From assembly GCF_005497185.1 (NCBI RefSeq), contig NZ_RJTN01000028.1, forward strand, positions 1-50,727: a stretch of DNA of 50,727 bases. Direction: 5' to 3'. Shown here piece after piece: positions 11,181 through 38,811 of the stretch. The notes under the pieces were generated by a model, which saw only the letters and a program-made list of their open reading frames with translations, did no database searches and was not told the DNA's origin. Position numbers and translations under genes: made by a program. Numbering within the stretch: the first letter of the stretch is position 1; the number at the start of each line of letters is the position of its first letter. The stretch is from Pectobacterium polonicum. GTDB lineage: Bacteria; Pseudomonadota; Gammaproteobacteria; Enterobacterales; Enterobacteriaceae.

Positions 11181-11226
11181 TTCCGTCGCAGCTTTAAGAC
11201 ACACACGCTAGGGTAGGCCAGTTGAA

Positions 11227-12174: not shown

Positions 12175-12254
12175 GACGGACACGTAATCTGACAGCCTGC
12201 GGGAAGCCGTGCGCTGCTCATGGAAAAATAAAGCCCATTACGGAAATTAAGTAA

Positions 12255-13676: not shown

Positions 13677-13696
13677 GTCCACGAGGGGCAATAAAC

Positions 13697-14383: not shown

Positions 14384-14397
14384 GGGCGTGACATTCC

Positions 14398-15597: not shown

Positions 15598-15636
15598 TGA
15601 TGTTCAGCGTTCGCCGTTTTTCAAAAGGTTACGGAC

Positions 15637-17046: not shown

Positions 17047-17064
17047 TGGGCTGAGGAGACGCTG

Positions 17065-18045: not shown

Positions 18046-18059
18046 AGGGTGAGCCACTC

Positions 18060-19019: not shown

Positions 19020-19053
19020 TTTTGATTGCCAAGATAGTGTTTTTAAAAACATC

Positions 19054-19077
19054 GATTTCCGATATGTGCCGGAAATC
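19054..19077 (+). repeat. Small hairpin between tadC and tadD
   Basis: GATTTCCG (19054-19061) and CGGAAATC (19070-19077) form a perfect 8-bp stem with an 8-base loop. No T-run follows, so it is probably an intercistronic stability or processing element. Confidence 0.4.
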
Positions 19078-19108
19078 ACAAGAGTTACAACCGATGGAGT
19101 TAGCGAAA

Positions 19109-21139: not shown

Positions 21140-21248
21140 TCCCAAGCCGGAATAATAAATTTATCACGATGAGCAATGTCGTTTTTATTTTCCCGTTTCA
21201 TGGGCGGGACGAGTACGCGCTGAATCCAGGTACACAGGATAGGAATTG

Positions 21249-22880
21249 ATGAAAAAAACCTTACAGAACAGAAGAGTAAAAAAAGACGATACCGGAATCA
21301 CTCTGTTCTGGCGTCAGCGCCTGTCCGCCTTTATTCATCAGGAAAAAGGGGCGGGTACAGGGTTTTATGTGCTGGGCGCAATGGCACTGTTGGTGACGGC
21401 GGCTTTCATTGTGGATACCTCAACGTCAACGGGTGATGCGACGCAGATCAAGCGTGCGACGGATGCCGCCGCGTTGGCCGTTGGCCATCAGGCCACCATT
21501 AACGGCGAAGAATACAGTCAGGAAGACATCAATACGCTGGCGTATGAATACGTCAAAAGCAATCTGGGAATGAATAAGGCGCTGAGTGAAAAACTGGTGG
21601 CGGGCGACGTGACCGTCATTGAAGGCCGCAATAGCGCTACGCGTAAAACCTATACCGTGACCGTGGCTTTTGAAACCAAGCCCAGCCTGCTGAGTTTGGG
21701 GTCGAGGGCGCAGGAAGTGTACTCGACCTCGGAAGTCATCAACCGCCCGACGGAAGTGGCCTTCGTAATGCCAGTGACGGGGGATATGAGTGATGCGGAT
21801 ATTCGCGCGTTGAAAAGTGTCAGTCGCTCGTTTGTTGAGCGCCTGCTTAGCAGTGGGGATGCTAAACGCGACAACCTGTGGGTGTCGTTGGTGCCGTATA
21901 GCCAATCGGTAAATGTGTACGATGCAGAAGATGCGAACCGCATTCGTCGCTGGTCTACACCGAGTGCACTGAACCCACCGGAGCTGCGTTCACTGTTTGC
22001 CAGTGGTGTGGTGAGCAGCTTGGCCGATCGCCGTTTCCCCGATCGCCGTGCGAATTTGCTGTGCATGTACCGTGGACTGGGTCGGGAAGAAAACTTCTTC
22101 TGGGATGAACCGCCCGTTGGGCAATTTCGCGTGTACTACCGCCATGATTTGCCGCAAAACGGCAGTCCTGGCGCACCACCTATCAGCTGGCGTGGTCCTA
22201 ACCCCGATCTTTATCCGTGGGATAACAACTCCGATGCCGTAGATACCCGCTTTATTGTGGCGGATCGCGGATGCCCAAATGCTGCGCTGATGCCGCTGAC
22301 CAACGAAGAAAGTAAGCTGAATCAGCGTATCGATCAGTTTTCTGCCCGTTTCAACGTGAACTACGCCATCGGCATGTCGTGGGCAGGGGCGGCGCTGTCA
22401 CCCAACATGCGCGGGTCAGAAGGCTGGGGCGATGCCACGCTACCGCTGGATTTCAATCTGGACGGCAATGGTGACGGGCAAAAAGTGATCGTAATGATGG
22501 CCAACACTATCGGCAACTGGTTCGACACCGACAGCTACAACTTCAATCGCAACGAGTTCCGTGGTGAAACCGGCAACGATTCTGCCCGTACCTTTGCCGC
22601 GCAGCGCTTTCAGGATCTCTGCTCCAGCTTCCGCGCACGCAATATCAAATTCTATTTTGTCGGCATTCGTCCCGGCGACCCTGAAGATTTTGGCCGCAAC
22701 CTGTTCGACAGAGAAGCGACGCCAGGCCTGCTGGTCTGCACTGAGGGTGAAAAACGTATGAGCTTTATTGATGGTTCGGGCTTTGGTGCAGAAGGCGTTG
22801 AGGATCAATTGATTCGGCGTTTGGATCGTATCGCCGGCCAGATCGAAACCGAGGGCGGCTATGTTCGGCTGGTTGAATGA
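21249..22880 (+). CDS. tadG: TadG, TadE/G-like helix with vWA-type domain
   Basis: Large Tad protein, 544 residues. A basic cytoplasmic N-tail is followed by the TadG helix (about 37-60, GAGTGFYVLGAMALLVTAAF) and the DATQIKRATDAAALAVG segment common to TadG proteins. The periplasmic part resembles a von Willebrand A fold (VAFVMPVTGDMSD, a degenerate MIDAS-like start; LWVSLVPYSQSV; KVIVMMANTIGNW), with Cys residues in RGCPNAAL and LVCTEGEK. It is thought to anchor the pilus at the cell envelope. AGGA lies just before the ATG at 21249. The giant protein gene follows after 58 bases. Confidence 0.88.
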   Translation: MKKTLQNRRVKKDDTGITLFWRQRLSAFIHQEKGAGTGFYVLGAMALLVTAAFIVDTSTSTGDATQIKRATDAAALAVGHQATINGEEYSQEDINTLAYEYVKSNLGMNKALSEKLVAGDVTVIEGRNSATRKTYTVTVAFETKPSLLSLGSRAQEVYSTSEVINRPTEVAFVMPVTGDMSDADIRALKSVSRSFVERLLSSGDAKRDNLWVSLVPYSQSVNVYDAEDANRIRRWSTPSALNPPELRSLFASGVVSSLADRRFPDRRANLLCMYRGLGREENFFWDEPPVGQFRVYYRHDLPQNGSPGAPPISWRGPNPDLYPWDNNSDAVDTRFIVADRGCPNAALMPLTNEESKLNQRIDQFSARFNVNYAIGMSWAGAALSPNMRGSEGWGDATLPLDFNLDGNGDGQKVIVMMANTIGNWFDTDSYNFNRNEFRGETGNDSARTFAAQRFQDLCSSFRARNIKFYFVGIRPGDPEDFGRNLFDREATPGLLVCTEGEKRMSFIDGSGFGAEGVEDQLIRRLDRIAGQIETEGGYVRLVE

Positions 22881-22938: not shown

Positions 22939-25900
22939 ATGACTTTTTCCCGCTCAAAATCTGGTTCAGCCTTAACGCGTCCTCCGCGTCAGGCGTGGGT
23001 ATTGGAACCGCGCATGATGTTTGATGCTGCTGCTGTAGTGACTGCGGTCGATGTTGCAGCGCACGTTGCGGCAACGGATACGGCACCCGGCGTTGATGCC
23101 ACGCCCGTTAAAGCGACAGTCACTATCACTGATACCAGCGACCGCTTTGAACCAATCGATCTGTTCAGCAATGTCAGCGTGTCAGCGGATAAAAATGGGC
23201 AGGAACTGACAAATTTGGTGATTACCGTTAATCGCACGGGTGCGAATCAGGCAATCGTCATCGACGGTACGGAAATTACGCTGGAAGCCGCTAATGGCGC
23301 AAGAACGACGGAAGGCGACGGAAAATACGGCTATACCGTTGCGGTTAGCGGTGCGACGACAACTATCACGGTGAGCATTGATTCATCCGATGCGTTTCAA
23401 CCCAGCGATGTTGCTAAGCTGATCGACGGTATGACTTACCGACCACTCGATAAAACCGTGGCCGGCGGCGATGTGACGGTAACACTGAAAAGTCTGAGTG
23501 ACGAGAGCGATACTGCCGAACTGAATATCCACTCGACCATCACCATTGACAGCAAAATTAACGTCGCGCCAGTGGTGTCTGCGTCGGATGCGCCCGAACT
23601 GTCCGAATTAATTATCGTACCCGGAATGGAATCCCCGCAGGACGTGCGCTATTCCAGTAATGGTAATTATGCCTACGCCATAGGAAACGATGGCACGCTG
23701 GGTGTCTTTACCGTCGGCGAGCATGGCAAGCTGACGTTGAGCCAAACGCTGAACGATGTCAGCGCGCTTAAGGATGTGAAAGAAATCACGCTGAGCGCAG
23801 ATAACCGTTCGCTCTATGCCATTACAGGCAATAGCAATATTGTTGCACTGAGCCTTGACGACAACGGTCAGGTGATTCAGGTCGAGGGCAGCTATACCCA
23901 GACAACCCCTTCGCAAAACGGCAATATTACTGGGCTGGCCATCTCCAGCGATGGGGCTCAGGTTTATGTTGCCACGCAGTGGAACGGCATGGTCGTCTTT
24001 ACTCGCGATGCGACGACAGGGAGTCTGACGCTACTTCAGGTGGTGAAGGACAGTGGGATCGATCGCAGCGGTATTGTGGCAAGCAGCGGTGACTATGTTG
24101 TTACTGTTGGGATGGGGGCGAAGCATACGCTGTCAGTTTTCCAGCGGAGTGAGAACGGGACATTAACGTCTGTCGCTAAGCTGGAAACGTCTGGAGAAGG
24201 CTATGGCGCGGTAGATTATCAACTGGCAATCTCGAAGGATCAGCAGTTTATCTATGTCGCCGATCCTGATAACGGCGAAATCAGCGTTTATCAATTGCGC
24301 GATGGCACCGAAGGAAAGACGCTGACCCGTACTGATACGAAAGCGTTGGAAAACATCAACGCGCTGTATCTTAACGCTAATGGTAGCCAGCTCTATGCCT
24401 TGAGCAGCGAAGGCACGTTGCAGATTTATAGCGTCAATGCCTCTACGGGGGCGCTAAGTGAAAGCGGCCAGATTACGAATATTGGCGATACGCATGGCAT
24501 GGTGTTGTCGCCAGATGGGCAATCACTTCTGGTGGCTGGCGAAGCAATCCAGCGCTTTAGCGCATTACGCACTTACCTCTATGGCAGCGAATTATCGTTT
24601 GCCGATCATGTCACGCTGTCCGATAGCAATCTGGATGTGTTAAACGGCGGTGCGGGTAACTATAACGGTGCCACGCTGACTATCGGCCGTGAAACGCCTT
24701 CGGCAGACGATCAATTTGGCCTAAGCGCAGGTAATGACCTGACGCTGCAAGGCGGAAAAATTCTGCAAGCTGGCGTAGAAATTGGCACTTTTGCACAGAA
24801 TCAAGGCACGCTCAGCGTGACGTTTACTGCTGATGTGACAAAAGAAACCGCTAATGCGGTTCTGAAACAGATTACGTATCGCAATATCGGCAGCCAGAGC
24901 ACCACCGAGACGGTGGCGTTGACGGTGGCTGCGAACGATGGTGAGCTCAATAGCACGGTGACGAGCATTGCGTTGCTGCTGACTGCCAATAGTGCGCCAA
25001 CGTTGGTTAGCCAGGGAGGAAGCAACCTGACGTTGGATACGCGCGGTGCATCCGTCACGCTGTTCAAAGACACGGCGGTTAACACCGGAGAAGCTGGGCA
25101 GGCGCTGACAAAGCTGTCGATCGGTATTGATGGCCTAAATAACCCGCATCAGGAATACCTGACGGTGGATGGTACGGCCATCAATCTCAGTGAGAACAGT
25201 GCGGGCACAACGGTGAGTGGCTACCAATATAGCTACACCTATGACGCCGTGAGTGGGGAATCTTCTCTGGTGCTAAACAGTGCTCAGGGTATCAGCAGTA
25301 TGGCGATGATGAAGCTGGTCGACGGCATGAGCTATTCGGCTGGTAAAGAAAGTACCAGCGCCAGCGGTGTTCGTACTATCACGTTAACCGAATTGCAGGA
25401 TAACGGCGGCACCGCCAATGGTGGAAATGATACCGCGACGCTGACGGTCTCCAGCAGTATCAATTTGGCCTTAAATGAGCAGCCTGCGATCGAGGCAACC
25501 TATTCCCCAGACACCACGCTGTTTTACAACGATGGAAAGCTCAGTGATTACAATGAGCGTGTTTCGGCGATTAGCGTTTCTCAGGATGGTAAAACCCTGC
25601 TGGTAACCGGTAGCGAAGGCAACAATAACAGCGGCAAGACTCATCTGCGCGTTTACGCTCGTGATGCGGAAACTGGCGCACTGACGTTGTTACAAAGCTT
25701 CACGCAGGGCGAACAGGATGATCCGTCCACCTCCGCGATTGAAGTGAATGGCCTGAACACCATCACCACGCTGGTACAGTCGAAAGATGGTGCCAGCGTG
25801 TATGTCGCAGGGGGAAGCGGAAGCGCCTACTCGCTGGTGCAGTTCAGCCGCGATGCCACAACGGGACAGTTGAGCTATGTCGGCATTGTTGCCACACAGG

Positions 25901-28900
25901 GGGTGGATGGTGTTAGCGGGCTGGATGCAACAGTGTCTGAAATTGTTCTGTCCGATGATGGTACTTCGCTATATACCATTAACGGTGTGACGCCGATGGA
26001 TGGATCGACAGGGAAGGATGCTGTGACTTTCTTCTCGCGTGATACCACCTCCGGCGCGCTGACGTTTATCGGTTCGCTGATTGGCAGTGATACCCTCCCG
26101 CTGAAAAGCCCAAGCGGCATTGTGCTGTCCAGCGATGGCACATCGGCTTATCTCTCCAATTTGGGGAATCACAGTATTACCGTTCTGTCTCGCGATGTGG
26201 AGACAGGCAGCCTGAGCTATGTCTCGACGATTAATAAAAGTACGATCGCCGCTGATGAGAATAGCGCCGAGATTCCGAAAGACGATCGTTACCTGACCGC
26301 GTTGCAAGACATCGTTATTTCACCTGATAACCGTTTTGTCTATGTGTCGTCAAACTCGCAGGGTACGGTCTCAATTTTCAGCCGCGATGCGGATACCGGC
26401 GCGTTGACCTACGCCGGGACGATGGATTTGTACAACAGTGAAAGCCACGTTCCTACTGAACTGAGAGCGACATCACTGCGTGAAATCGCGATCTCTCAGG
26501 ATGGCGCGGCGCTGTATGTTGCGGCGCTCGGCGGTAGATCACTGTTGGTATTCGCCCGCGACGCCGATTCTGGGACACTAACGTTCCGCAATGGTGTTGA
26601 CCTCTCAGTTAACACGATCAACCATCTCGCAGTCAGTGCCGATGGTAAGAATATCTATGCTGGTGTCAGCACGTTCTTTGCCGGGCTGAACGTGTTCACC
26701 GCAACGGCAAATGCACCTTATAGCCAGACGGCGGATATCGCGTTTGCCAAAGGTGTCATGCTGTCAGACCAAGAGCTGGATGCTGCTGATGACTATAAGG
26801 GTGCATCAATCACGATTAGCCGCAACGGTGCAGCGTCGGCAAATGACCACTTCGCTTTCCAGAACGGAAGCGGTCTGACGCTGTCCGACAGCAATATTCA
26901 GTATCAAGGCGAGACAATTGCTACGTTCAGCGCGAGTGAAGGCACGGTGAAGATTGTCTTTACCGACAGCGTCACTAAAACGGTCGCTAATCAGGTTTTG
27001 CATCAAGTGACTTACCGCCATGATGGTGATACGGCAGGCGCATCGATTCCACTGAACATCACCTTGAGCGATGGGTCTAAAGATACCAGCCTGCTGTTGA
27101 CGCTGGTGGAGAATAAAGCGCCGGTTGTGGATAATAGCGAGTACGCCCCGCCGTCTGGTACAGCAGGGCAATCGTATACCGCAGTACTGCCAGAAAATCT
27201 ATTCCGCGATCCTGAAAATGACACGCTGACGTGGCAAGTTACCGGCCTCCCTGATGGATTAACCTTCGATCCTGAAACGCGCACGATTTCCGGCACGACC
27301 GCTCTCAATGGCGCGGGAAGTTTCTCTATTACCGTCGTCGCGACGGATGAGTCGGGTGGACAGGCGGAGCAGACGATTACGCTGACAATTGCCTCCGATC
27401 CTGCACAAGTGCCAACGCTCGGCGGTGAATCCAGTTCTCTTGAAAGTGACTATGCCCTCGATGGCTATGATCCCAATAGCTATGCCGATGTACTGACTGG
27501 CGTAAAAGACAGCCAGCTGTCCGCAGATGGTAAAACCCTCTATGTCGTGAGTTCACCAGAGAGTGGGTCAGCGGTGCTGAGCGTCTTTGTGCGCGATGCT
27601 GAAGGCAAATTTACCCTTTCGCAGACCTTCTTTAACTACCACTCCGTTTACAACGATGAGACGAAGCAAACCGATAATGTTGTGGATAATGCTGGATTAG
27701 CAGGTGCGTCAGATGTGATTCTGGCCGCCGATGGGCGTTATCTGTATGTGGTAGGCAGTGAAGACAATGCGGTGACCATTTTCAGCGTTGGCAGCGACGG
27801 TGAATTGACACAAGTAGGTGTCCTTGACTCGGCTGCTCTGGGTGGGCGTTCTCTGGATGTCCGTTCCCACATTGTGTCTCAGGGTGACTACCTCTATCTC
27901 ACCGCCGCCCAGTCTGACAGTGATAATGACAGCCGCAGCGTGCTGGTGTTTAAGCGCGGAACGGACGGTACGCTAGAGGCGGTTTCTCAGGCCGATAATT
28001 TGATCGGCGCGAGCCGTCTTGTGCTCGATCCCGCAGGGCGTTACCTGTTCGTATCGGGTTCCGGCGGTACTGTTGGCGTCACCGCGTTCAGTATTAGTGA
28101 CCAAGGGGAATTGACTCAGGTTGGTCAGCTTACGGGAACGAGTGAGTATTACATCAATGGGCTTGCGCTATCGCCTGATGGCAAAACGCTGTATGCGATT
28201 AATGCTGATGGAATTCAGTACACGCTCAATACGATAACGGTGGGGGCTGATGGCGCGCTCTCGCTTACGGATACAACGCCAATTACCGATGACGGGGGTG
28301 ATACTGGTGAAGCGCTGGCAACCGGTCTGGTGGTTTCTGCCGATGGTACGGCGCTGTTCGTAATTGGCAAGAATATTTCTGTTTTCTCTCGTGCCGAAGA
28401 TGGCAGCCTGACGCTGAAGAACACGATTAGCGGCAGTTGGGATAGCTCGATCAATATTTCCTTCTCGAATCTGCAACATGTGGAACTGAGTGCAGACGGC
28501 AAGCAACTGTACTTGATTGGTGGCGATAAGGTTCATGTGCTGAATGTCGGTACTGCGGGTGCCACCTATACCGAAGATAAAGATGCAACGGTGTTGTTGC
28601 CGTCAGGCCGTCTGTCCGATCCGCAGCTCGATGCGTTAAATAGTGGTGAGGGGGATTATAGCGGCGCGAGCATCACGGTAGGTCGACAAACGGGTGGGCT
28701 ACCGGAAGACGTCTTCGGCTTTAAGGCTGATAACGGCTTAACGCTGGACGGTAATAATATCGTCAAAGACGGTACCACGATCGCCACTTTTACGCAGGTT
28801 GACGGTGCGTTGACAGTGACCTTTACCGCTGCGGTGACAAAAGCTGATGCGCAGAACGTGCTGCGCCAAATCACCTATCTCAACAGCAGCAAAGATCCTG

Positions 28901-31900
28901 AACATGCGGGCGCGTCACCTGTCTTCACCTTCAGCATTAATGACGGTGACAATAACGTTGCGACATTGGACGTGACGGTTAATCTGATTGGCGTAAACGA
29001 TCCGGCTGTACTGACGACGACGGTGTTGAATCCATCGGTTCCGGGCAACGGCGAGTTCGTGAAGCTGTTTAAAGATACCCAGATTGATACGGTTGAAAGC
29101 GGGCAAACCATCTGGCAAGTGATATTAACCTTTGATGCATCAGGTCCAAATGAAGCCATAAGTGTAGGCGGTGAAACGATCGTTCTTGAAGACACTAACG
29201 GTGTCAGGAAAACTACGTCGGGCATGGAGTATCTGGTTGATGTTGTGGATGGCAAAGCTACCGTCACCCTCTATGTTGAGCAAGACGGTGTTGGCCCCGA
29301 AGCGATGATTGACAGCATCGGCTACAACTATCTGGGTAGCAACGGCAGCGGAGAACGGCATGTTACGTTAAGCATTAAAGAGAATGATTATAGCGGAAGC
29401 TCCCCCGTCACCACGCTGGAACAAAGCATTACGCTGACGCTGGTGCCTGCGGCAGAAACCAATACCGCACCGGTTATCACGGTTCCGGTTACGACGCCGA
29501 CGTATACCGAACGCGCTGAACCTGTTGTGTTAGCACCAGAGGCAACGGTGTCCGATGCGCAGATGGACAAACTTAACGGTGGCAAAAGCAATTATGACGG
29601 TGCGACGCTCAAAGTGACGCTGGGCGACGGTAAAACTGCACTCGATAAGCTCGGTTTCAATGCGGGTAATGGCCTGACGTTATCCGGTAATGTACTCCAG
29701 AAAGATGGCGTGACCATTGGTCAGGTGACTAACCAAGATGGCGTGCTGACGATCCGTTTCAACGCGGATGCGGGCACAATTCCGACCATGGAAGACGTGC
29801 AGAACACGCTGCGTCAGATTACTTATGCCAGTGACAGCCATACACCTGCTGCGCAGGTAGCGGTATCGGTAACATTATCCGACCGCTATCTGGTGTCTCA
29901 GGATACGGCTTTAACCATAGGCATCACACAGATTAATGATGTTCCAGCTGTTAATACCGATCCTGTTCTGTCATTCGGCGATTTAGATCGGCTCCAGACT
30001 CTGGAATTATCGGCATTTGGGCTGACAGGTTCAACGAACAGCGCGGTGTCTGCTGACGGTAGCCGTGTCTATATTGCCGACCAGCAGGGTCACATTGCGT
30101 TATTTACTCGCAATGCCGATGGCACCTTGACGCACATGCGGACGAGCGCGATTGCCAGCGGCGTCATTCAACTCCAAATGACGTCTGATGGTGCGAATTT
30201 ATACGCTCTGCAAAGAAATAACAGCGAAGGCATTATTGTTACTTTCGCTCTTGATAGTGAGGGCAATCTGACAGAGCAAAGCTCTCTGAAACAGATCTGG
30301 GATGCGGCGCAGATTACGCTGTCGGATGATGGGAAAAACCTTTATCTGATGGATCGGACGACGATTATCGTTTATGGGCGAGATCCCACGACGGGTGCAC
30401 TGACCCATCTTCAAGATCTCCAGAGCAATATGTCAGCACCACCTTATCTGTGGGCTCCGACGGAAGTTGTCACGCAGGGGGATAAAGTTTATGTGGTCAC
30501 CAACCCCAGCAACGGTTCATCACTCATTGTTTATCAACGTAATAGTGAAACAGGTCAGTTGACCCCGCTGACGTATCTCCATTCAGGGGAAACGGATGGC
30601 GCTGGTAAGGTCGTGAATCTGGACTATGTGCAACATTTATCTGTCAGTGCTGATGGGCAAACGATCTTTATCGCGAATAGCCGTACCAGTTCCTTTAACG
30701 GATGGACAGGGGAAAACACGGTAAACAACCACCCATTGAAAATAGATGCTTTCCGCCTCAACGCTGCCGGGACGTTAACGCATTTGGGCACCATCAATGG
30801 CACCGCGACGGTGGAAGACATTTCACTGTCAGCGGATGATAAAACACTGTATGTCGCCTTATCCGATGGTTCTCTGGCTTATTATTCGGCGGATACGTTG
30901 GAACGTATTGATGCCCAGAATAATCTGACGGATGCCCAGAAAATTGCAGTATCGCCACGAGGTGAGCTCATTATCCTTGCCGATGCGCTGGTGGTGATGC
31001 GCCAGACTCCGCTAAGTGCTTTCTATACCAATGGAGGATCTGCGGTAGCAGCAGTGCCGACATTGACACTCAGCGATGCGGAATTAGATGCTGCAAATGG
31101 CGGAGCAGGGGATTACCGTGGGGCATCCGTTGTGTTTCAGCGTAGTGAATCTCCTTCATCAAACGATCGTTTTGAGATGATTGCCGGCAACGGTTTTACC
31201 GTCTCGGGTAACATTATCAGTAAAGATGGGCAACCGGTGGCAACGCTGAGCCAGGCTGATGGTCGGGCTTCTGTGACGTTTACTGCGAGCCTTTCCCGTG
31301 ATGAGGCGACCGCTCTTGTGCGCCAGATGGGGTGGCGTAGTACGGTAGTGGTTAATGAAAGTTCTGTGGTACTCCGCGTGGTACTGAATGACGGAGAGCA
31401 GGATTCCACGCCTTATGAGGCGACGGTAACGATTTCCGATAGTGTGAATCAAGCGCCTGTGGGGAATCGTGATGCCTTTGCCCCGCCTGTCGCACAGGTT
31501 GGCACCCGCTGGAGTTATACCTTACCGGATTCGCTGTTTACCGATCCTGAAAATGACGCGCTGACGTTTACCGTTGACGATACGCGATTGCCTAACGGCG
31601 TGAGCTTTGATAGCGCAACCCGTACTCTCAGCGGCACGCCGTCAACGGCGGGAACATTCAACCTGACCATTACCGCCACGGACAGCGCGGGTAACGCGAC
31701 GGCGCTGAATGTGGCGCTGACGGTTAATGCGGCCTCAACGCCGGTCGATCCGGGAACGCCGGTTGACCCAGGCACGCCAACGGAGCCTGCCAATCCCGAT
31801 AACACCGCGACTGCGGCTCCGGTGATTCTGGTGCAGCAGGGCGCAAGCCTACCTGTTGATGCGAGCGAAAGAGAACGCGAACAGCCGCTGAATGCAATTG

Positions 31901-32637
31901 TCGCCGATCTGTCTCGCTCGGAAGCACAGCCATCACCGACTAACACTCTTATCGAACCGATGCGCCAGCGCGATGCCGAGACGGCACGCCAATCGGATGC
32001 GCCTTGGGTGCTCGATCCTGTGATGTCACAGTTGATGCCGACGCTGGAGCAGGTCAACTTCTCTTCTCGTGCTAACACCGCCGTGCGAGACAGTTCGCCA
32101 GCCTCTCCGGCGGATTCCAACCTGTTCCTAAGTGTGCGTGGTCAAACAACGTCACTGGAGTCGGCGTTCAGCAGCGTGCAGGGCGCATTACGGCCTGATG
32201 CCTCCGGTGCGCTCGCCTTTAGCTTGCCGCAGCGCATGTTCAGCGTGCGTGAAGGTAATGCCACGCTGACGCTGCAACTGGCGAATGGGCGTCCGCTACC
32301 TGCGTGGGTGCAGTTTGATGCCCGTAGCGGTGTAGTACGGGTTACCGATGCCAGTGCATTGCAGGTGAATCAGATCCAACTGGTGCTGAAAGCGCAAGCC
32401 GCAGATGGTACTAGCCGGACGGTACCGATCACGCTGCAAACCGGGCAGGGCGATGGCGCAGCGATGGCGACCGACCGTGGCGCGATGCGACTGCCTTCAC
32501 ACGCTACTCAAAATGACGATGTGGAGCAGTTAGCACCAACGGGGAAAACCGCCTTTACCGAACAGCTGCGTCAGCATCAGCCGGAACAGGATGCGTTGCT
32601 GGCAGCGCTCAGTGAATTGAGCAGCCTGCGTGCATAG
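22939..32637 (+). CDS. Giant LEPR-motif surface protein with four beta-propellers
   Basis: A 3232-residue protein, probably an extracellular adhesin or matrix protein. It has no Sec signal; instead residues 21-32 carry VLEPRMMFDAAA, the LEPR motif at the start of many proteobacterial giant surface proteins. Approximate order: Ig-like module A (50-205); YVTN/lactonase-type propeller 1 (227-550); module B (554-684); A (701-844); propeller 2 (858-1254); B (1268-1390); putative Ig domain (1394-1487); propeller 3 (1498-1874); B (1884-2017); A (2034-2167); B (2188-2334); propeller 4 (2344-2690); B (2704-2834); putative Ig domain (2838-2930); VDPGTP linker (2933-2954); cadherin-like domain (3088-3171). 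Propeller blades show SxDGxxLYV and FSRDxxTGxLT patterns. Module B starts LSDxxLDxxNGGxGDYxGA. No RTX nonapeptides are seen. Function is inferred. Confidence 0.85.
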   Translation: MTFSRSKSGSALTRPPRQAWVLEPRMMFDAAAVVTAVDVAAHVAATDTAPGVDATPVKATVTITDTSDRFEPIDLFSNVSVSADKNGQELTNLVITVNRTGANQAIVIDGTEITLEAANGARTTEGDGKYGYTVAVSGATTTITVSIDSSDAFQPSDVAKLIDGMTYRPLDKTVAGGDVTVTLKSLSDESDTAELNIHSTITIDSKINVAPVVSASDAPELSELIIVPGMESPQDVRYSSNGNYAYAIGNDGTLGVFTVGEHGKLTLSQTLNDVSALKDVKEITLSADNRSLYAITGNSNIVALSLDDNGQVIQVEGSYTQTTPSQNGNITGLAISSDGAQVYVATQWNGMVVFTRDATTGSLTLLQVVKDSGIDRSGIVASSGDYVVTVGMGAKHTLSVFQRSENGTLTSVAKLETSGEGYGAVDYQLAISKDQQFIYVADPDNGEISVYQLRDGTEGKTLTRTDTKALENINALYLNANGSQLYALSSEGTLQIYSVNASTGALSESGQITNIGDTHGMVLSPDGQSLLVAGEAIQRFSALRTYLYGSELSFADHVTLSDSNLDVLNGGAGNYNGATLTIGRETPSADDQFGLSAGNDLTLQGGKILQAGVEIGTFAQNQGTLSVTFTADVTKETANAVLKQITYRNIGSQSTTETVALTVAANDGELNSTVTSIALLLTANSAPTLVSQGGSNLTLDTRGASVTLFKDTAVNTGEAGQALTKLSIGIDGLNNPHQEYLTVDGTAINLSENSAGTTVSGYQYSYTYDAVSGESSLVLNSAQGISSMAMMKLVDGMSYSAGKESTSASGVRTITLTELQDNGGTANGGNDTATLTVSSSINLALNEQPAIEATYSPDTTLFYNDGKLSDYNERVSAISVSQDGKTLLVTGSEGNNNSGKTHLRVYARDAETGALTLLQSFTQGEQDDPSTSAIEVNGLNTITTLVQSKDGASVYVAGGSGSAYSLVQFSRDATTGQLSYVGIVATQGVDGVSGLDATVSEIVLSDDGTSLYTINGVTPMDGSTGKDAVTFFSRDTTSGALTFIGSLIGSDTLPLKSPSGIVLSSDGTSAYLSNLGNHSITVLSRDVETGSLSYVSTINKSTIAADENSAEIPKDDRYLTALQDIVISPDNRFVYVSSNSQGTVSIFSRDADTGALTYAGTMDLYNSESHVPTELRATSLREIAISQDGAALYVAALGGRSLLVFARDADSGTLTFRNGVDLSVNTINHLAVSADGKNIYAGVSTFFAGLNVFTATANAPYSQTADIAFAKGVMLSDQELDAADDYKGASITISRNGAASANDHFAFQNGSGLTLSDSNIQYQGETIATFSASEGTVKIVFTDSVTKTVANQVLHQVTYRHDGDTAGASIPLNITLSDGSKDTSLLLTLVENKAPVVDNSEYAPPSGTAGQSYTAVLPENLFRDPENDTLTWQVTGLPDGLTFDPETRTISGTTALNGAGSFSITVVATDESGGQAEQTITLTIASDPAQVPTLGGESSSLESDYALDGYDPNSYADVLTGVKDSQLSADGKTLYVVSSPESGSAVLSVFVRDAEGKFTLSQTFFNYHSVYNDETKQTDNVVDNAGLAGASDVILAADGRYLYVVGSEDNAVTIFSVGSDGELTQVGVLDSAALGGRSLDVRSHIVSQGDYLYLTAAQSDSDNDSRSVLVFKRGTDGTLEAVSQADNLIGASRLVLDPAGRYLFVSGSGGTVGVTAFSISDQGELTQVGQLTGTSEYYINGLALSPDGKTLYAINADGIQYTLNTITVGADGALSLTDTTPITDDGGDTGEALATGLVVSADGTALFVIGKNISVFSRAEDGSLTLKNTISGSWDSSINISFSNLQHVELSADGKQLYLIGGDKVHVLNVGTAGATYTEDKDATVLLPSGRLSDPQLDALNSGEGDYSGASITVGRQTGGLPEDVFGFKADNGLTLDGNNIVKDGTTIATFTQVDGALTVTFTAAVTKADAQNVLRQITYLNSSKDPEHAGASPVFTFSINDGDNNVATLDVTVNLIGVNDPAVLTTTVLNPSVPGNGEFVKLFKDTQIDTVESGQTIWQVILTFDASGPNEAISVGGETIVLEDTNGVRKTTSGMEYLVDVVDGKATVTLYVEQDGVGPEAMIDSIGYNYLGSNGSGERHVTLSIKENDYSGSSPVTTLEQSITLTLVPAAETNTAPVITVPVTTPTYTERAEPVVLAPEATVSDAQMDKLNGGKSNYDGATLKVTLGDGKTALDKLGFNAGNGLTLSGNVLQKDGVTIGQVTNQDGVLTIRFNADAGTIPTMEDVQNTLRQITYASDSHTPAAQVAVSVTLSDRYLVSQDTALTIGITQINDVPAVNTDPVLSFGDLDRLQTLELSAFGLTGSTNSAVSADGSRVYIADQQGHIALFTRNADGTLTHMRTSAIASGVIQLQMTSDGANLYALQRNNSEGIIVTFALDSEGNLTEQSSLKQIWDAAQITLSDDGKNLYLMDRTTIIVYGRDPTTGALTHLQDLQSNMSAPPYLWAPTEVVTQGDKVYVVTNPSNGSSLIVYQRNSETGQLTPLTYLHSGETDGAGKVVNLDYVQHLSVSADGQTIFIANSRTSSFNGWTGENTVNNHPLKIDAFRLNAAGTLTHLGTINGTATVEDISLSADDKTLYVALSDGSLAYYSADTLERIDAQNNLTDAQKIAVSPRGELIILADALVVMRQTPLSAFYTNGGSAVAAVPTLTLSDAELDAANGGAGDYRGASVVFQRSESPSSNDRFEMIAGNGFTVSGNIISKDGQPVATLSQADGRASVTFTASLSRDEATALVRQMGWRSTVVVNESSVVLRVVLNDGEQDSTPYEATVTISDSVNQAPVGNRDAFAPPVAQVGTRWSYTLPDSLFTDPENDALTFTVDDTRLPNGVSFDSATRTLSGTPSTAGTFNLTITATDSAGNATALNVALTVNAASTPVDPGTPVDPGTPTEPANPDNTATAAPVILVQQGASLPVDASEREREQPLNAIVADLSRSEAQPSPTNTLIEPMRQRDAETARQSDAPWVLDPVMSQLMPTLEQVNFSSRANTAVRDSSPASPADSNLFLSVRGQTTSLESAFSSVQGALRPDASGALAFSLPQRMFSVREGNATLTLQLANGRPLPAWVQFDARSGVVRVTDASALQVNQIQLVLKAQAADGTSRTVPITLQTGQGDGAAMATDRGAMRLPSHATQNDDVEQLAPTGKTAFTEQLRQHQPEQDALLAALSELSSLRA

Positions 32638-32694
32638 CACACGCAGACTGAATATTGAGACGAGATTTTATTTACTTAACCACTAACCCAGGCG

Positions 32695-32727
32695 CTTGCA
32701 GGCGGTAATCAATCCACCGCCTGCAAG
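32695..32727 (+). repeat. Strong hairpin between the giant gene and the exporter genes
   Basis: A perfect 12-bp inverted repeat, CTTGCAGGCGGT (32695-32706) and ACCGCCTGCAAG (32716-32727), loop of 9. No T-run follows. It could be an mRNA stabiliser or partial attenuator that lowers exporter expression relative to the giant protein. Confidence 0.6.
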
Positions 32728-32766
32728 ATGAAGGGAACAGACAAATAGAAGATGGGGAGAACCCGG

Positions 32767-34569
32767 GTGAATCAGCACATAGCGCATTTCTGGGATAGCC
32801 AGCAACACGACAGTCAGCAGCAGAATGTTCAACACGAGGCTACACCACGCACCGCAGGTTCCCGAGCGTTACGGATCGCGGTAACCCTCGCCTGTCTGGG
32901 GTTAGCCGGCTGTGCCGTCAAACCAGAACCTGTGACGGTCGAACAGCAGGTTGCACAGGCATTGAGTGACAGAACGCAGATGTTCGCTAATCAGGAGCCA
33001 GTACGCGGCACGATTACGCTGGATGAGGCGATTGCCCGTGCGCTGAAATATAACCTGCAACAGCGGGTCGCACTGATGGAACAGGCAATGGAAGATGACC
33101 TGTTAGGCGTGCAGAATCTGGACATGCTGTTACCTAAACTAACCGCACGCGCCGGGTTGCAAACTCGCGATAATGTGGCAGGTTCTAGCAGTCAGTCGGT
33201 CACAACAGGGCGACAATCTCTGGAAGCCTCCACGAGTCAGGATCAAACCCAGCGCACTGCCGATCTGACGATGAGCTGGAACGTGCTGGACTTCGGTATC
33301 AGCTATTTCAACGCCAAAGTGCAGGCGAACAAATCGCTAGCGGCGGAAGAGCGTCGTCGTCGCGTAGTGGCCGATATTACCCGTCAGGTGCGTACCGCTT
33401 ATTGGGAAGCGGCCACGGCGCAGCGTTTGCAGCCGGAAGTGACCACGGCGTTGACGCAGGCGCGTCAGGCGCTGGAATATGCGCGTCAGACCGAACAGCA
33501 ACGCCTTTTGGCACCGGTTGAAGCGCTGCGTTTCCAGAAAAACATGCTGGAGATGGTGCGCCAGTTAGAAATTGTCGACAGCGATCTGGTGGTGGCGAAA
33601 TCCCGTCTGGCCGCGCTGATGAACCTGCCGCCGTCCAGCAAGTACGATGTCGTCGTGCCGAGCGAAAGCAGTCTGGTTGCGCCAAAGATGGCCTACTCGC
33701 TCGACGATCTGGAAAACTTCTCGATGGTAAAACGCCCGGAAGTGCGTGAAGAGAGCTATCTGGCACGCAATAGCGTACTGGAAACCCGTAAATCACTGCT
33801 GCGTCTGCTGCCGGGCGTGTCGCTGTTTGCCGGTATCAACGGCGACAGCAACAGCTATCTGGTTAATCACCAGTGGGCAAACGCGGGCGTTCAGGTCAGC
33901 GGTAATCTGTTGAACGTGCTGTCGTGGTCATCGGTGAAACGTGCCGGACAGGCGAATGAAGATCTAGCGGAAGTGCGTCGTCAGGCGCTGCGTATGGCGG
34001 TGTTGACGCAGGTGAATGTCGCCTGGCAGGAGTATCAGCAGAGTACGCAGATGTTTGGCCGCTATCAGGAACTGGCGCGGATTCAGCGCGGTATCCTCAA
34101 CCAGACCACGCTTAGCGTACAGCATCGTGCCGAAACACAAATGGAGCAGGTGCGCGTTAGCACCGAAACCATTCTGACCACGCGCGCCCGCGATCGCAGC
34201 TTTGCCGATGTGCAGAACGCATTGGGCGCAGTGTATCAGGCCGCAGGTCTGGACGTGCTGCCGGATAACGTGAACGATGTCAGTCTGGCGGCGTTAAGCA
34301 ACTCGATTGCCCGCACCACGGGGAATCTTGAAAAAGGCGGCGTTGCGGTGCCGCGTCTGTCCCTGTCAACACCAGCAGTGCCTGCCACCACGACGGCTTC
34401 CACCAACGCCGTTTCTACCGCGCCAGCACCGTCAACCGCTGCGCCAGTAACGAAACCTATCGTGCCCGCTACTGTTACGCCTGCGGCTAATGCGGGAAAA
34501 CCTTATCGTGTGGTGAATACGGATATGTGGGATAACCTGCAATCCTTACAGGCGGGAGGCTCGCGTTAA
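32767..34569 (+). CDS. TolC-family outer-membrane lipoprotein
   Basis: Outer-membrane efflux/secretion channel of the TolC (OEP) family, about 600 residues. GGGGAGA eight bases before the GTG at 32767 favours that start; an ATG at 32752 is in frame. The signal sequence is N-extended (about 35 polar residues) and ends in the lipobox GLAGC. The channel domain (about 80-510) has two OEP repeats rich in long coiled helices (TRQVRTAYWEAATAQRL; RQALRMAVLTQVNVAW). The C-terminus is a Thr/Ala/Pro-rich tail (about 530-590) unlike TolC. It is followed by adaptor genes and lies next to the giant protein gene, so it probably serves its export. Confidence 0.85.
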   Translation: MNQHIAHFWDSQQHDSQQQNVQHEATPRTAGSRALRIAVTLACLGLAGCAVKPEPVTVEQQVAQALSDRTQMFANQEPVRGTITLDEAIARALKYNLQQRVALMEQAMEDDLLGVQNLDMLLPKLTARAGLQTRDNVAGSSSQSVTTGRQSLEASTSQDQTQRTADLTMSWNVLDFGISYFNAKVQANKSLAAEERRRRVVADITRQVRTAYWEAATAQRLQPEVTTALTQARQALEYARQTEQQRLLAPVEALRFQKNMLEMVRQLEIVDSDLVVAKSRLAALMNLPPSSKYDVVVPSESSLVAPKMAYSLDDLENFSMVKRPEVREESYLARNSVLETRKSLLRLLPGVSLFAGINGDSNSYLVNHQWANAGVQVSGNLLNVLSWSSVKRAGQANEDLAEVRRQALRMAVLTQVNVAWQEYQQSTQMFGRYQELARIQRGILNQTTLSVQHRAETQMEQVRVSTETILTTRARDRSFADVQNALGAVYQAAGLDVLPDNVNDVSLAALSNSIARTTGNLEKGGVAVPRLSLSTPAVPATTTASTNAVSTAPAPSTAAPVTKPIVPATVTPAANAGKPYRVVNTDMWDNLQSLQAGGSR

Positions 34570-35324
34570 TGGCTGTCGGCATGGTGCGTCCGCTGTTGCT
34601 GGTCAGTGCGTTAAGTCTGCCCCTATTGGGGCAGGCTGCGACGCAGGGAGACATTCGCGTGCAGCTTAGCGCGCAGCGCTATACCGTGTTATCCAGCGAA
34701 ATCGCCGGGAAAGTGACGGATATTGCAGTGAAAGAAGGCGAACACTTCAAACAGGGGGATACGCTGCTCACGTTTGACTGCACCGTGCTGCGTGAAAAAC
34801 TGAACTACTCAAACGCGGCAGAGAATGCCGCGCGTAAGAAACTGGCGATTGCCGATCGGTTGGATAAACTCAATTCGATCAGCCTGTCGGATGTCGATCA
34901 GGCGCGATCGTCGGTGTCGATGGCGCAGGCGGAAAGCGGCGTCAATCGTGCGATGCTGCAACGCTGTGCCATTAAAGCGCCGTTCTCTGGTCGCGTAACA
35001 GAAACTAAGGTGAAGCGTTGGGAATCGGTGCCGGAAGGCAAAGAGCTGCTGGCGATCTATGATGACAGTGCGTTCGAGTTGGAAATGATCGTGCCATCGC
35101 GCTGGCTGGTGTGGTTAAAGCAGGGTAGCGCTTTTCAGGTCACGCTGGATGAAACTGGCCTGAGCTATCCGGCTGAAATCAGCCGACTCTCGTCGGCTAT
35201 CGACCCGGTCAGTCAATCGGTGAAGGTCTTTGGTCGGATTACCCAATCCACCGCCGGATTGCTGCCAGGCATGAGCGGCGTGGCGCAAATTGTGCCACCG
35301 GATGCGGGTAGCGTAACGCCATGA
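34569..35324 (+). CDS. Periplasmic adaptor (membrane fusion protein)
   Basis: Short membrane-fusion/HlyD-type adaptor of 251 residues with a signal peptide (cleavage near GQAATQ, about 23-25). The barrel-sandwich/lipoyl halves are visible (SSEIAGKVTDIAVKEGEHFKQG and AIKAPFSGRVTETKV), with a short helical hairpin between (about 75-125) and a beta-barrel after. The hairpin is much shorter than in HlyD. It overlaps the TolC-like stop by one base and the next gene by four, so it is translationally coupled to both. Confidence 0.83.
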   Translation: MAVGMVRPLLLVSALSLPLLGQAATQGDIRVQLSAQRYTVLSSEIAGKVTDIAVKEGEHFKQGDTLLTFDCTVLREKLNYSNAAENAARKKLAIADRLDKLNSISLSDVDQARSSVSMAQAESGVNRAMLQRCAIKAPFSGRVTETKVKRWESVPEGKELLAIYDDSAFELEMIVPSRWLVWLKQGSAFQVTLDETGLSYPAEISRLSSAIDPVSQSVKVFGRITQSTAGLLPGMSGVAQIVPPDAGSVTP

Positions 35325-36679
35325 CCGATTGGCATTCGACGGCAGCAGCATCAACGGAACAGGATACCCGGCTGGCGCTGCTGGCCGAACTGTTACAGTT
35401 ACAAAGCCGCGCCAGAGCGCGAGAAACGCTGGATGAATTGGCGTTTTTCATCGTCAATGAAACGCATAATTTGGTGAAATATCGTCAGGCGCTGTTGTGG
35501 GATAGCGATAAACGGCGTTTGCAGGCCGCTTCCGGGCTGGCTTCGCTCGATCATAACGCACCGTTTTGCACCGAATTTAGTCGCCTGTGCCGCCAGTGGC
35601 AGGAAGAAGGTCGTCAAACGCAGGCGCTCAGTTTTCAGGATTTACCCACAAACGATCGTCAACTGTGGCAGGAGCATCTGCCGGAATTTTTACTCTGGTT
35701 ACCGCTGCGCGTGGCGCAGGGCGATGCGCCGCTGGTGCTGGTTTTAGCGCGGGATAGTGCGTGGCTGCCCGCAGAAATTATCCTGCTGGAAAAGCTGGCA
35801 GACGCCTACGCACATGCATGGTTAAGCCTGTGTAAAGTGCGCCGTCGTCAGGTCAAAACCAGTCCGAAAAAACGCCGACTGATCGTTGCCGCGGCGGTGG
35901 CGTTAGTGCTGATCTTATTGATCCCCGTTCGTCAGTCGGTACTGGCTCCGGCGGAGATCGTCGCCCACCGTCCGGTTATGGTTCGGGCCCCTGTTGCGGG
36001 CGTGGTGGATGATATTCTGGTTCGCCCTAATCAAACCGTTAGCGCTAACCAACCGCTAGTGCGGCTGGACGTGCGTGAACTGGAAAATCGGCTGGAATCC
36101 GCGCGACAGGCTTTTGCGACTGCCGATGCCCAGTACCGTCAGGCACAGCAACAGGCGCTGTTCGATGCCAACAGCAAGGCCAGTCTGGCCGTGCTGCAAA
36201 GCCGCCGCGAGCAGGCGCAGAGCGACATGGATTTTCTGCAACGACAGCAGGAACGTATGCAGCTTGTTTCCCCGCGTGACGGCGTGGCGATTCTTGATGA
36301 TGCCAGTGACTGGATTGGGCGTTCGGTAGCGGTCGGCGAACGTATCATGATGATCGCCGATCCACACGATGTGGAACTGGAGATCCAATTGCCTGCGGCA
36401 GATGCAATTGCACTGGAAAATGGCGCGGATGTACGTCTATTCCTCAATGTGGCACCGAATTCAGCACAGGAAGCGCGACTTGAACAGATCGGCTATCGTG
36501 CCGCGCCAACGCCGGATAATGTGATGGCCTATCGGCTGCGCGCGCGTTTTACGCAGGATGATCCACAGCTGCGTGTAGGGCTGAAGGGGACGGCTAAGCT
36601 ATACGGAAAACGTACGGTGTTGTTCGTTTACCTGCTGCGTAAACCGCTGGCCTCTCTGCGCGTTTGGCTGGGCGTGTAA
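35321..36679 (+). CDS. GAF-like / TM / HlyD-type adaptor fusion
   Basis: A 452-residue protein with a cytoplasmic N-terminal domain (about 18-170) that resembles a GAF fold (TLDELAFFIVNETHNLVKYRQALLW is the typical first segment; ALLVLARDSAWLPAEI, LEKLADAYAHAW the last helix). A basic stretch then leads to one TM helix (about 186-203, LIVAAAVALVLILLIPV), and a periplasmic HlyD-type half: first lipoyl motif VMVRAPVAGVVDDILVRPNQTV, coiled hairpin (about 250-310), second lipoyl motif LVSPRDGVAILDD, and a beta domain. The GAF part could sense a cytoplasmic ligand or dock to partner proteins; this is inference. Coupled by overlap to both neighbours. Confidence 0.8.
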   Translation: MTDWHSTAAASTEQDTRLALLAELLQLQSRARARETLDELAFFIVNETHNLVKYRQALLWDSDKRRLQAASGLASLDHNAPFCTEFSRLCRQWQEEGRQTQALSFQDLPTNDRQLWQEHLPEFLLWLPLRVAQGDAPLVLVLARDSAWLPAEIILLEKLADAYAHAWLSLCKVRRRQVKTSPKKRRLIVAAAVALVLILLIPVRQSVLAPAEIVAHRPVMVRAPVAGVVDDILVRPNQTVSANQPLVRLDVRELENRLESARQAFATADAQYRQAQQQALFDANSKASLAVLQSRREQAQSDMDFLQRQQERMQLVSPRDGVAILDDASDWIGRSVAVGERIMMIADPHDVELEIQLPAADAIALENGADVRLFLNVAPNSAQEARLEQIGYRAAPTPDNVMAYRLRARFTQDDPQLRVGLKGTAKLYGKRTVLFVYLLRKPLASLRVWLGV

Positions 36680-36696
36680 CGATGGCTGGAGGAGCG

Positions 36697-38811
36697 ATGC
36701 CCACCGCTGGGCTTAGCCCGCTGCGCGATGAACTGATCCTGCACGCGGGACCGGCTAACCGTGACGGTTCGCCCAGTTGGACATTGGAAGATCCGCTGCG
36801 TGGTCTCTATTTTCGTATCGGCTGGGCAGAAATGGCAATGCTATCGCGCTGGTCGATGGGGAATACCTCGCAGATTGTCGCCGAGATTAACCAGACTTCC
36901 GCGTTGACGCTTGATGACAGCGATGTGCAGTACTTCAACCGTTTCTTGCAGGCCAACAGCCTGACGCGTGTTTCCGGCGATGAGGCGCTGGCGCAGTTCT
37001 CTCGTCAGGTAGAGCAATCGCGTGTCTCGATGTGGCGCAAGCTGCTAAAGAATTATCTGTTCTTCCGCATTCCTTTATGGCACCCGGATCGCTTTCTGGG
37101 TGCCACGCTACCGTGGATTGAACCCTTTTTCAGTCGTACTTTTCTTAAACTGACGCTGCTGGTGGCCGCGCTGGGGTTATTCCTCGCCGGACGCCAATGG
37201 GAAACGTTCAAACATACCTTTCTACATTTCTTCACGCTGGAAGGGGCGGCACTGGCAGGACTGACGCTGTGCTTTACCAAGATCCTACATGAGTTTGGCC
37301 ACGCCTACACCTGCAAGCGCTTTGGTGCGCGGGTTGCCACCATGGGCATCGCGTTTCTGGTGATGATGCCAGTGCTGTACACCGATACGTCCGGTTCGTG
37401 GAAGCTCACCCGCCGCCGACAGCGGATGGCGATTGGTGCAGCGGGTATGATGACCGAACTGGCGTTGGCGGCATGGGCAACGCTGGCATGGAGCTTCTTG
37501 CCGGACGGTATGCTGCGCAGCGCCGCATTTATGCTGGCGACGACGACCTGGATCATGACACTGGCGATTAACCTCAGTCCGTTGATGCGCTTCGACGGCT
37601 ATTTCCTGCTTTCTGATGGGTTGCAGGTGCCGAATCTGCAAAACCGAGGCTTCGCGATTGGCCGCTGGCAGATGCGGGAATGGCTGTTCGGCTTGGGCGA
37701 TGCGCCGCCGGAGCACTTTCCCCGTTGGCTACAACGCACGCTGGTGGGTTATGCCTTTGCGGTGTGGATATACCGTTTCTTTCTGTTTACCGGTATCGCG
37801 ATTCTGGTTTACCACATGGCGTTCAAGTTATTAGGAATGCTGCTTTTCGCGATTGAAATCGGCTACTTCGTGGTGATGCCCGTGGTGAATGAAGTACGCG
37901 AATGGAGTAAACGCCGTAAGGATTACCGTATGAACCGTAATATGACGACAACGCTGGCCGTGAGTACCGTGGTTCTGCTTTTGCTGATGATTCCCTGGCA
38001 GCGTAGCGTGTACGCACCGGCGCTGCTGCGGGCGGAACAGCAAAGCAGCCTGTACATGCCTGTGCCTGCGATGATTCAGCGCATTGAGGTGCAGGTCGGT
38101 CAGCCTGTGCGCGCCGGGCAAACGCTGTTTACGCTGTCGTCTGACGCACTGGCGCATGAACGGCAACAGCTTGAACGCCAGATTGCCACATTGAACTGGC
38201 AAAGCACCTTTCAGGTATTCAACAAGGAAGCCGCAGGCGATCACCAACGCGTGAAGCAGGAGCACGAAGCGGCACTGCAAAAGTTGCAGGTATTGCAGCG
38301 CCAGTCTGAGCAGTTGACGGTGCGTGCGCCGATAGACGGCGTAGTGGCAGATATGGCGACACCGCTGGAAGCGGGCGAATGGCTGGGGCAGGGCGAGTGG
38401 CTGGCGGTGGTGACCAAACCAACCGGCGGACTGGTGGAAGCCTTCGTGTCGGAGAAAGACTGGCAGCGGCTCAGCACTGGCGCAAAAGGCACGTTTTATT
38501 TACAGGATGTCAGTCGTTCATCGTTGCCGCTCACGATTGTGGAAATCGCCAGTACGGCGACCCGCGATCTGAATGCGGCACCGGAGCTCGCCTCGGTATA
38601 TGGCGGTGATATTGCCACACTGAGCGATGCACAGCGCAAGCTGCACCCTGAACAGGCGATGTATCGCGTATTGCTCAGCCTGCCTGCCGATTACCGTGCT
38701 CAGCCGCAGGTACTGCGCGGCACGGTGGTGATGGACGGTGAAGCTCAAAGCCTATTGGTTCGTGGCTGGAAAGTGGTATCCGCCGTGCTGATCCGCGAGC
38801 TGTCATTCTGA
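36697..38811 (+). CDS. M50-type zinc metalloprotease fused to a periplasmic adaptor
   Basis: A 705-residue polytopic protein. The N-terminal part (1-140) is soluble and resembles the partner-binding region of YydH/M50-adaptor proteins. The membrane protease core (about 140-420) has the site-2-protease zinc motif HEFGH (His198, Glu199, His202), a GAAGMMTELALAAW segment and the third-ligand region NLSPLMRFDGYF. A further TM at about 425-442 (VVLLLLMIPW) leads into a HlyD-like half: YMPVPAMIQRIEVQVGQPV, coiled hairpin (about 485-540), VRAPIDGVVADMATPLEAG. The open frame begins at a TTG at 36664, but GGAGGAG immediately precedes the ATG at 36697. No ATPase is linked. The active site is intact, so proteolysis of the giant protein or regulation of export is plausible. 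Confidence 0.83.
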   Translation: MPTAGLSPLRDELILHAGPANRDGSPSWTLEDPLRGLYFRIGWAEMAMLSRWSMGNTSQIVAEINQTSALTLDDSDVQYFNRFLQANSLTRVSGDEALAQFSRQVEQSRVSMWRKLLKNYLFFRIPLWHPDRFLGATLPWIEPFFSRTFLKLTLLVAALGLFLAGRQWETFKHTFLHFFTLEGAALAGLTLCFTKILHEFGHAYTCKRFGARVATMGIAFLVMMPVLYTDTSGSWKLTRRRQRMAIGAAGMMTELALAAWATLAWSFLPDGMLRSAAFMLATTTWIMTLAINLSPLMRFDGYFLLSDGLQVPNLQNRGFAIGRWQMREWLFGLGDAPPEHFPRWLQRTLVGYAFAVWIYRFFLFTGIAILVYHMAFKLLGMLLFAIEIGYFVVMPVVNEVREWSKRRKDYRMNRNMTTTLAVSTVVLLLLMIPWQRSVYAPALLRAEQQSSLYMPVPAMIQRIEVQVGQPVRAGQTLFTLSSDALAHERQQLERQIATLNWQSTFQVFNKEAAGDHQRVKQEHEAALQKLQVLQRQSEQLTVRAPIDGVVADMATPLEAGEWLGQGEWLAVVTKPTGGLVEAFVSEKDWQRLSTGAKGTFYLQDVSRSSLPLTIVEIASTATRDLNAAPELASVYGGDIATLSDAQRKLHPEQAMYRVLLSLPADYRAQPQVLRGTVVMDGEAQSLLVRGWKVVSAVLIRELSF

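Follow-up and report, generated by a model that had tools for sequence, protein, structure and literature searches.

A 50,727-nucleotide stretch of DNA from the plant-associated bacterium Pectobacterium polonicum (contig NZ_RJTN01000028.1; hereafter the window) carries five head-to-tail open reading frames (ORFs), all on the forward strand, at positions 22939-38811. Judging from the genes alone, we favor, with moderate confidence, the reading that they form a dedicated, ATP-binding cassette (ABC)-independent, TolC-type system for the export and surface display of a giant protein with an N-terminal LEPR leader. The giant itself is probably surface-exposed. An energized inner-membrane pump is the defining feature of type I secretion and of tripartite efflux, and the genetics say that no dedicated ABC transporter appears to belong to the TolC-adaptor-M50 unit which goes with LEPR giants. 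If true, giant proteins would cross two membranes by a new route, with a protease in the place of the pump and, in the module's sister form, a shortened SecA. The unexplained LEPR leader and many giants with a DUF4347 domain would also gain a function, and the module is widespread, being found in 84 of 299 genomes of a phylum sample and in 32 of 274 of a class sample.

Gene content and recurrence of the module

The first gene (22939-32637, +) encodes the giant, a 3232-residue presumed cargo recognized from its ORF, its Pfam matches and the LEPR-8K model NF012209. It is followed by a 605-residue TolC-family outer membrane factor (32752-34569, +; Pfam OEP, 4.6e-20) with a lipobox-like site (LGLAGCAV), and by a short, 251-residue periplasmic adaptor of the HlyD or resistance-nodulation-division (RND) membrane fusion protein type, identified by Pfam and bearing a signal-like N-terminus (34569-35324, +). 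The fourth product (GAF-HlyD, 452 residues; 35321-36679, +) combines a putative GAF-like cytoplasmic domain, a single hydrophobic, presumably transmembrane helix and a HlyD/MacA-like adaptor, as read from Pfam, a predicted model and a fold search. The fifth (M50-HlyD, 715 residues; 36664-38811, +), whose start codon was assigned by ORF only, is an M50 intramembrane metalloprotease with a putatively PqqD-like N-terminal region and a C-terminal MacA-like adaptor half. The last four ORFs overlap successively by 1, 4 and 16 bases. HlyD_3/HlyD_D23 matches (Pfam) lie on the third, fourth and fifth genes, MacA-like adaptor folds were recovered for the last two, and both a HlyD-type adaptor and a TolC-type channel, as expected of type I secretion, are thus present in the window. 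The ORFs and Pfam matches bear out the gene composition given in the initial annotation of this DNA, a giant without repeats-in-toxin (RTX) sequences followed by a TolC-like lipoprotein, an adaptor, a GAF-like/HlyD protein and an M50-HlyD fusion. Its assignment of a GAF-like domain holds for the family, with GAF matches in 11 of 41 homologues and agreement of the predicted model, whereas the window protein itself has no Pfam GAF match.

The M50-HlyD protein has the features of peptidase family M50, namely the Peptidase_M50 profile (29.7 bits, cut-off 27.2), the HExxH motif and a second conserved aspartate within membrane helices; the corresponding residues H209, E210, H213 and D311 are invariant across 49 aligned M50-HlyD proteins. 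With about seven hydrophobic helices and an adaptor half, it may plausibly occupy the pump position. A fold search with its model was informative for the adaptor half only (residues 445-699, MacA-like). The best NCBIfam match is NF041824 (daptide_HExxH; residues 49-405), at 148 bits and hence below the cut-off of 300, and, for the PqqD-like region, TIGR03859 was matched in one locus (L098) at 1.1e-4, under its cut-off. An apparent gene fusion of M50 and GAF-HlyD in another locus (L062) was dismissed, the two ORFs overlapping in different frames.

The order TolC-adaptor-GAF-HlyD-M50 recurs in 17 of 19 related loci from Pectobacterium, Brenneria, Symbiopectobacterium, Niveispirillum and one record titled Serratia marcescens; L012 and L016 have some of the module ORFs broken up, and in L002, too, the giant is fragmented. 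A wider set of 80 window-type loci comprises 40 used for building profiles and 40 read afterwards, in stretches of at most 20 kb, some of which stop at contig ends. Forty of these loci have the window order, one with a second TolC, and the other 40 have partial forms: adaptor-GAF-HlyD-M50 without a same-strand TolC (19), the same trio with TolC behind M50 (4), GAF-HlyD-M50 (8), M50 alone (8) and TolC-M50 (1). Because the order recurs in 40 of the 80 relatives and partial forms are found in the rest, the arrangement in the window is not due to chance. In the two sets of 40, the trio of adaptor, GAF-HlyD and M50 was present in 35 and 28 loci, TolC in 26 and 18, and a giant, recognized by motif or composition, in 28 and 23.

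The window genome (4.84 Mb, 71 contigs) holds a second M50-HlyD, 40% identical to the first, on contig C6. The locus there has an adaptor, GAF-HlyD, a phage-collar-domain protein, a 2758-residue giant and a TolC-like ORF, that is, the complement of the window in another order, and no ABC gene was among the ORFs seen. The giant at this locus carries the LEPR-like sequence LESRVLFDGA together with DUF4347, and both module copies of the genome therefore hold a giant. Proteins resembling the phage tail collar domain also lie between M50 and giant in L023 (9028-9771; Pfam PF07484) and, according to a one-sequence profile, in L058, L060 and L138.

Co-occurrence of LEPR giants with M50-HlyD, TolC and adaptor genes had been proposed as a check on the module. 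In the phylum sample of 299 evenly drawn Pseudomonadota genomes, searched with a six-sequence M50-HlyD profile (E<=1e-40), at most three M50 candidates were scored in most genomes, and copy numbers are therefore lower bounds. DUF4347 was found in 85 genomes, 71 of them shared with M50-HlyD, leaving 13 genomes with M50 only and 14 with DUF4347 only; by genus (153 in total) the counts are 42 for M50, 41 for DUF4347 and 34 for both. Confident LEPR giants, defined by an LEPR-8K match at E<=0.01 in a frame of at least 300 residues, occur in 48 genomes, of which 47 are M50-positive, the exception (G212) being an 86% complete assembly. Together with the recurrent gene order, this result agrees with the expected association. 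A listed M50 lies on the same contig as 32 of the 73 giants so defined, and within 10 kb of 25. The rows of these counts, and of the C-terminal counts given below, are not independent, and the tests treated them as independent.

Leaders and C-termini of the giant proteins

The window giant is composed of Lactonase beta-propellers and He_PIG (Ig-like) repeats (Pfam); no RTX family was matched in Pfam, and it contains neither RTX nonapeptide matches nor cysteines. Its N-terminus (23002-23055) scores 19.1 bits against the curated LEPR-8K cut-off of 17, with the motif at residue 22; in a scan of the whole protein the model is unlisted at E<=0.001. No hydrophobic signal core is evident in the sequence of this N-terminus. 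The protein has GKTAFTEQL as its C-terminal box, of the type described below, and a shorter giant in L006 (1973 residues) retains LEPR and the same C-terminus. LEPR-like leaders begin many module-adjacent giants and are visible by pattern in 13 and 10 of the two sets of 40 loci, many giants being cut before their start within the stretch read.

A C-terminal box, [FL]xxQ[LIVF], was defined from the first loci and then scored on 16 giants read later, which were hand-picked and include relatives of the discovery loci (L133 and L140, from genera already seen). It was present in 12 of the 16, whereas its frequency in controls was 9% (420 ORF ends), 7% (406 internal 60-mers) and 11% (shuffled ends); a stricter form with a preceding G was shown by 8 of the giants and by 3-4% of the controls. 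A C-terminal domain which we take, by eye, to be caspase-like ends a class of giants (L120, L129, L151 and L152), three of which are among the four chosen giants without a box; the fourth, L129, has a box match within the caspase-like end that may be due to chance.

The DUF4347 domain, whose SHG and GC motifs presumably resemble those of caspase-fold proteases, was considered as a marker of the module and set aside as weaker than LEPR. Ten DUF4347 sites were read in genomes lacking a scored M50, of which one opens inside the domain (L168), one is cut (L166) and one has no long ORF (L164). LEPR was not found by pattern in six of the proteins (L106, L107, L108, L162, L163 and L165), and that of L108 has RTX repeats, while the protein of L167 has LEPR and a TolC-like neighbor in a genome that is 57% complete. 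In L087 (2877-7625), on one contig only, a LEPR/DUF4347 protein reads in frame into a periplasmic adaptor, a possible natural fusion. The DUF4347 protein BTH_II1339 is up in stationary Burkholderia thailandensis according to PMC12322963.

Energy source and competing explanations

In the window, no ORF has both ABC motifs and none matches an ABC profile, which was built from a single sequence (L010, called ABC by eye) and, like the motif patterns, can miss genes. With the same means, neither set of 40 window-type loci showed an ABC gene on the strand of the module at a distance of up to 1 kb, and ABC-like ORFs lie elsewhere in the stretch in 7 loci of each set. A local ABC pump was thus not detected by these means in the window or, at that distance, in the 80 loci, in agreement with the initial annotation of this locus. 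An RND or major facilitator superfamily (MFS) pump was rejected, a multi-helix ORF of at least 330 residues being found beside the module, by hydropathy only, in 2 of 80 loci.

A different ATPase accompanies a sister form of the module, which consists of GAF-HlyD, a lower-scoring M50-HlyD (22-25% identical to the window protein), a SecA-like protein of about 665 residues and an adaptor. The SecA-like protein contains SecA_DEAD, PP_bind and P-loop_SecA (Pfam), i.e., the motor core and the preprotein-binding domain. SecA_SW and SEC-C were not found by Pfam in four such proteins (L098, L101, L105 and L169), whereas the housekeeping SecA of a genome with such a protein (G287) has all of these domains. 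For two of the proteins the top scores were 573 and 593 bits (cut-off 814), below the cut-offs for SecA and SecA2 alike. An alignment with two housekeeping SecA proteins shows 37-41% identity; the SecA-like proteins retain the motor motifs and stop before what we take to be the wing and two-helix-finger region. The first 12 sister loci hold the SecA-like gene whole (8), as fragments (1) or as divergent homologues without a Walker motif (2), or lack it (1). In 20 further loci it lies directly beside M50 in 16, three of these without an exact GEGKT; four of the 20 had been picked for extra SecA matches, and 12 of 16 remain when these are left aside. Two giants found beside sister modules (L098:2-6103 and L101:13973-19999) share another C-terminal motif, HLGxDxxxRNPNAGLR.

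Throughout the phylum sample, all 35 genomes with at least two SecA matches, a few of which may be split genes, are M50-positive; 15 of the 35 have no sister M50 among the candidates scored, and a single SecA match was obtained in 3 of the 23 genomes for which a sister M50 is listed. The link is weaker in the class sample, where at least two SecA matches, some maybe from split genes, occur in 22 of 274 genomes, 18 of them M50-positive (14 plus 4 by a looser search) and four not (G311, G387, G404 and G495). Each of two Pectobacterium genomes (G000 and G222) has a single SecA. The SecA-like gene of the sister subtype suggests that a Sec-type motor could be one energy source. It abuts M50, and the initial description of the module as ATPase-less therefore fits the window subtype only and fails as a general statement.

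These elements can be combined into a proposed mechanism. The PqqD-like region of M50-HlyD would recognize, at the inner membrane, the N-terminal LEPR leader of the unfolded giant. A mixed ring of the three adaptors (M50-HlyD, GAF-HlyD and the short adaptor) on the TolC-like protein, as suggested by family and fold, would provide the periplasmic conduit, and the M50 site, whose catalytic residues are intact, may trim the leader. The enriched C-terminal box may be a further signal, for sorting or for retention. The motor of the sister subtype would be its minimal SecA-like ATPase, whose gene lies next to M50; the window subtype encodes no dedicated motor, and housekeeping SecA or the proton-motive force would be its most likely energy source. 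A more ambitious version, which we regard as possible and put forward only tentatively, is a separate one-step secretion class of Gram-negative bacteria in which the M50-adaptor replaces the ABC pump under TolC, the LEPR leader is read in the manner of ribosomally synthesized and post-translationally modified peptides (RiPPs), and a SecA-derived motor (the dedicated mini-SecA of the sister subtype or, in the window subtype, a shared SecA) operates without SecY.

Several observations weigh against dedicated, ABC-independent export. The export itself is deduced here from gene content. M50-HlyD is rarer in the class sample, which was balanced by family and searched at E<=1e-55. Of 80 genomes with LEPR over the curated cut-off in any frame, 68 are M50-positive, and LEPR-8K exceeds the cut-off in 1 of 14 control genomes as well; for 41 of the 73 confident giants the contig holds no M50, in part as a result of genome fragmentation. 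By the selection rule itself 23 ORFs qualify, some of them antisense frames, and the C-terminal box is present in 13, the seven ORFs outside the chosen 16 being four antisense frames, L114, L143:370-7524 and L146. PqqD was matched by Pfam in 8 of 49 M50 proteins (best 9.5e-9), the window protein not being among them. Pectobacterium has one SecA, and no result obtained here links SecA to the window subtype. LEPR is not exclusive, PMC10868602 reporting from a Vibrio a LEPR-XLL giant that also has RTX and serralysin domains. Finally, the window genome carries two LssB-type ABC genes away from the locus, and LssB was matched at E<=1e-125 in 24 of 35 module genomes (18 over cut-off), with PrtD over cut-off in 5 more, which leaves a remote pump possible for most of them.

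These genes favor an explanation in which a remote type I ABC exporter, e.g., of the LssB type, is the pump, the local TolC and adaptors are its envelope part and M50 is merely a processing protease. A Pfam-confirmed ABC gene near the module in L077 and an ABC/HlyD pair, called by eye, in L010-L012 point the same way. Nevertheless, we consider this unlikely, given the lack of detectable ABC genes on the module strand and the six of the 35 module genomes (G023, G064, G088, G213, G298 and the single-contig G082) in which none of LssB, PrtD and HlyB was found over cut-off, other ABC families not being excluded. LssB was scored in all 35 genomes and all three families only in the 11 without an LssB match, none of which has HlyB over cut-off; G082 and G213 show weaker matches to the HlyB profile (437 and 373 bits, cut-off 725.6), and the scored M50 copy of G064 has in-frame stops. 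A remote ABC pump was thus not found over cut-off in six genomes and is possible in the others. Because no ABC gene was detected in the modules and these six genomes lack the three families over cut-off, the distinct route for LEPR proteins that had been envisaged at the outset is well supported by the genetics.

Passage of the giant through SecYEG by means of an atypical LEPR signal, the module then carrying it across the outer membrane or M50 cleavage controlling its release, is an equally improbable account. It draws on the SecA-like ATPase of the sister subtype and on the single SecA of window-subtype genomes such as Pectobacterium. The two-helix finger of SecA acts at SecY, however, and the SecA-like protein has no detected SecA_SW or SEC-C and probably no such finger; nor does the LEPR N-terminus show a signal core of the usual hydrophobic kind. 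It seems very improbable, in turn, that the operon serves the export or maturation of another product, for example a small peptide, and that the giant is merely a neighbor. The nearest named M50 families, with NF041824 the best although below cut-off, are RiPP leader proteases, and 29 of 80 loci have no giant in the stretch read, some being cut by contig ends; against this stand the near-constant company of LEPR giants and M50 across genomes and the giants at both loci of the window genome, no systematic search for small ORFs having been made. Dedicated export of the giant by the module itself is the reading that we retain.

Genomic surroundings and comparison with known systems

The giant gene is preceded by a Tad/Flp pilus cluster (RcpC, secretin, T2SSE, T2SSF, Tad-like; window 10539-22880), which stops 58 bases upstream of it and is itself preceded by a two-component pair (7829-10085). 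These pilus genes look like a system separate from the module. Downstream, an AMP-binding, acs-like gene (43083-45043, -) is split into ORFs of 325 and 286 residues, where related loci have one ORF of 653 residues, and is apparently interrupted; an IS110-type transposase (49537-50520, -) lies close to the window edge.

A description of the module was not found in the literature searched, from which preprints and most subscription papers fell outside. The Flp/Tad cluster of Pectobacterium has been described in PMC3767616, and HlyD and TolC do not appear in its text. In the accessible part of PMC6963963, three Pectobacterium type I systems (Prt, Has and MRP) are listed and a peptidase M50 is named, without further detail, as found only in P. 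aroidearum, whereas the single "M50" in that of PMC8277102 is a residue number.

Among known systems, accessory SecA2 resembles the sister subtype in that a SecA paralogue would serve repetitive surface proteins. The sister protein differs from it in its length of only about 665 residues, in its undetected wing/scaffold and SEC-C regions and in scoring below the cut-offs, and it does not occur at the window locus. Tripartite efflux by MacAB-TolC, RND or MFS systems shares with the module the MacA-like adaptor folds of the fourth and fifth proteins and a TolC-family protein, whereas no MacB, RND or MFS pump was seen in the module. The M50-fold leader proteases of RiPPs (daptide; epipeptide YydH/LiaK) have an M50 site in common with M50-HlyD, preceded by a region that may be PqqD-like in the latter too, whereas M50-HlyD stays well below their model cut-off, is fused to an adaptor and has a giant protein as its neighbor. 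LapA and SiiE are giant adhesins of type I secretion systems, and these systems, including those of the MRP type, also unite a repetitive giant cargo, a TolC-family channel and HlyD-type adaptors in one locus. In contrast to them, no ABC gene was detected in the module and it has three adaptors, one fused to M50 and one with a GAF-like domain, while the window cargo has a LEPR leader in place of RTX repeats or an evident Sec signal.

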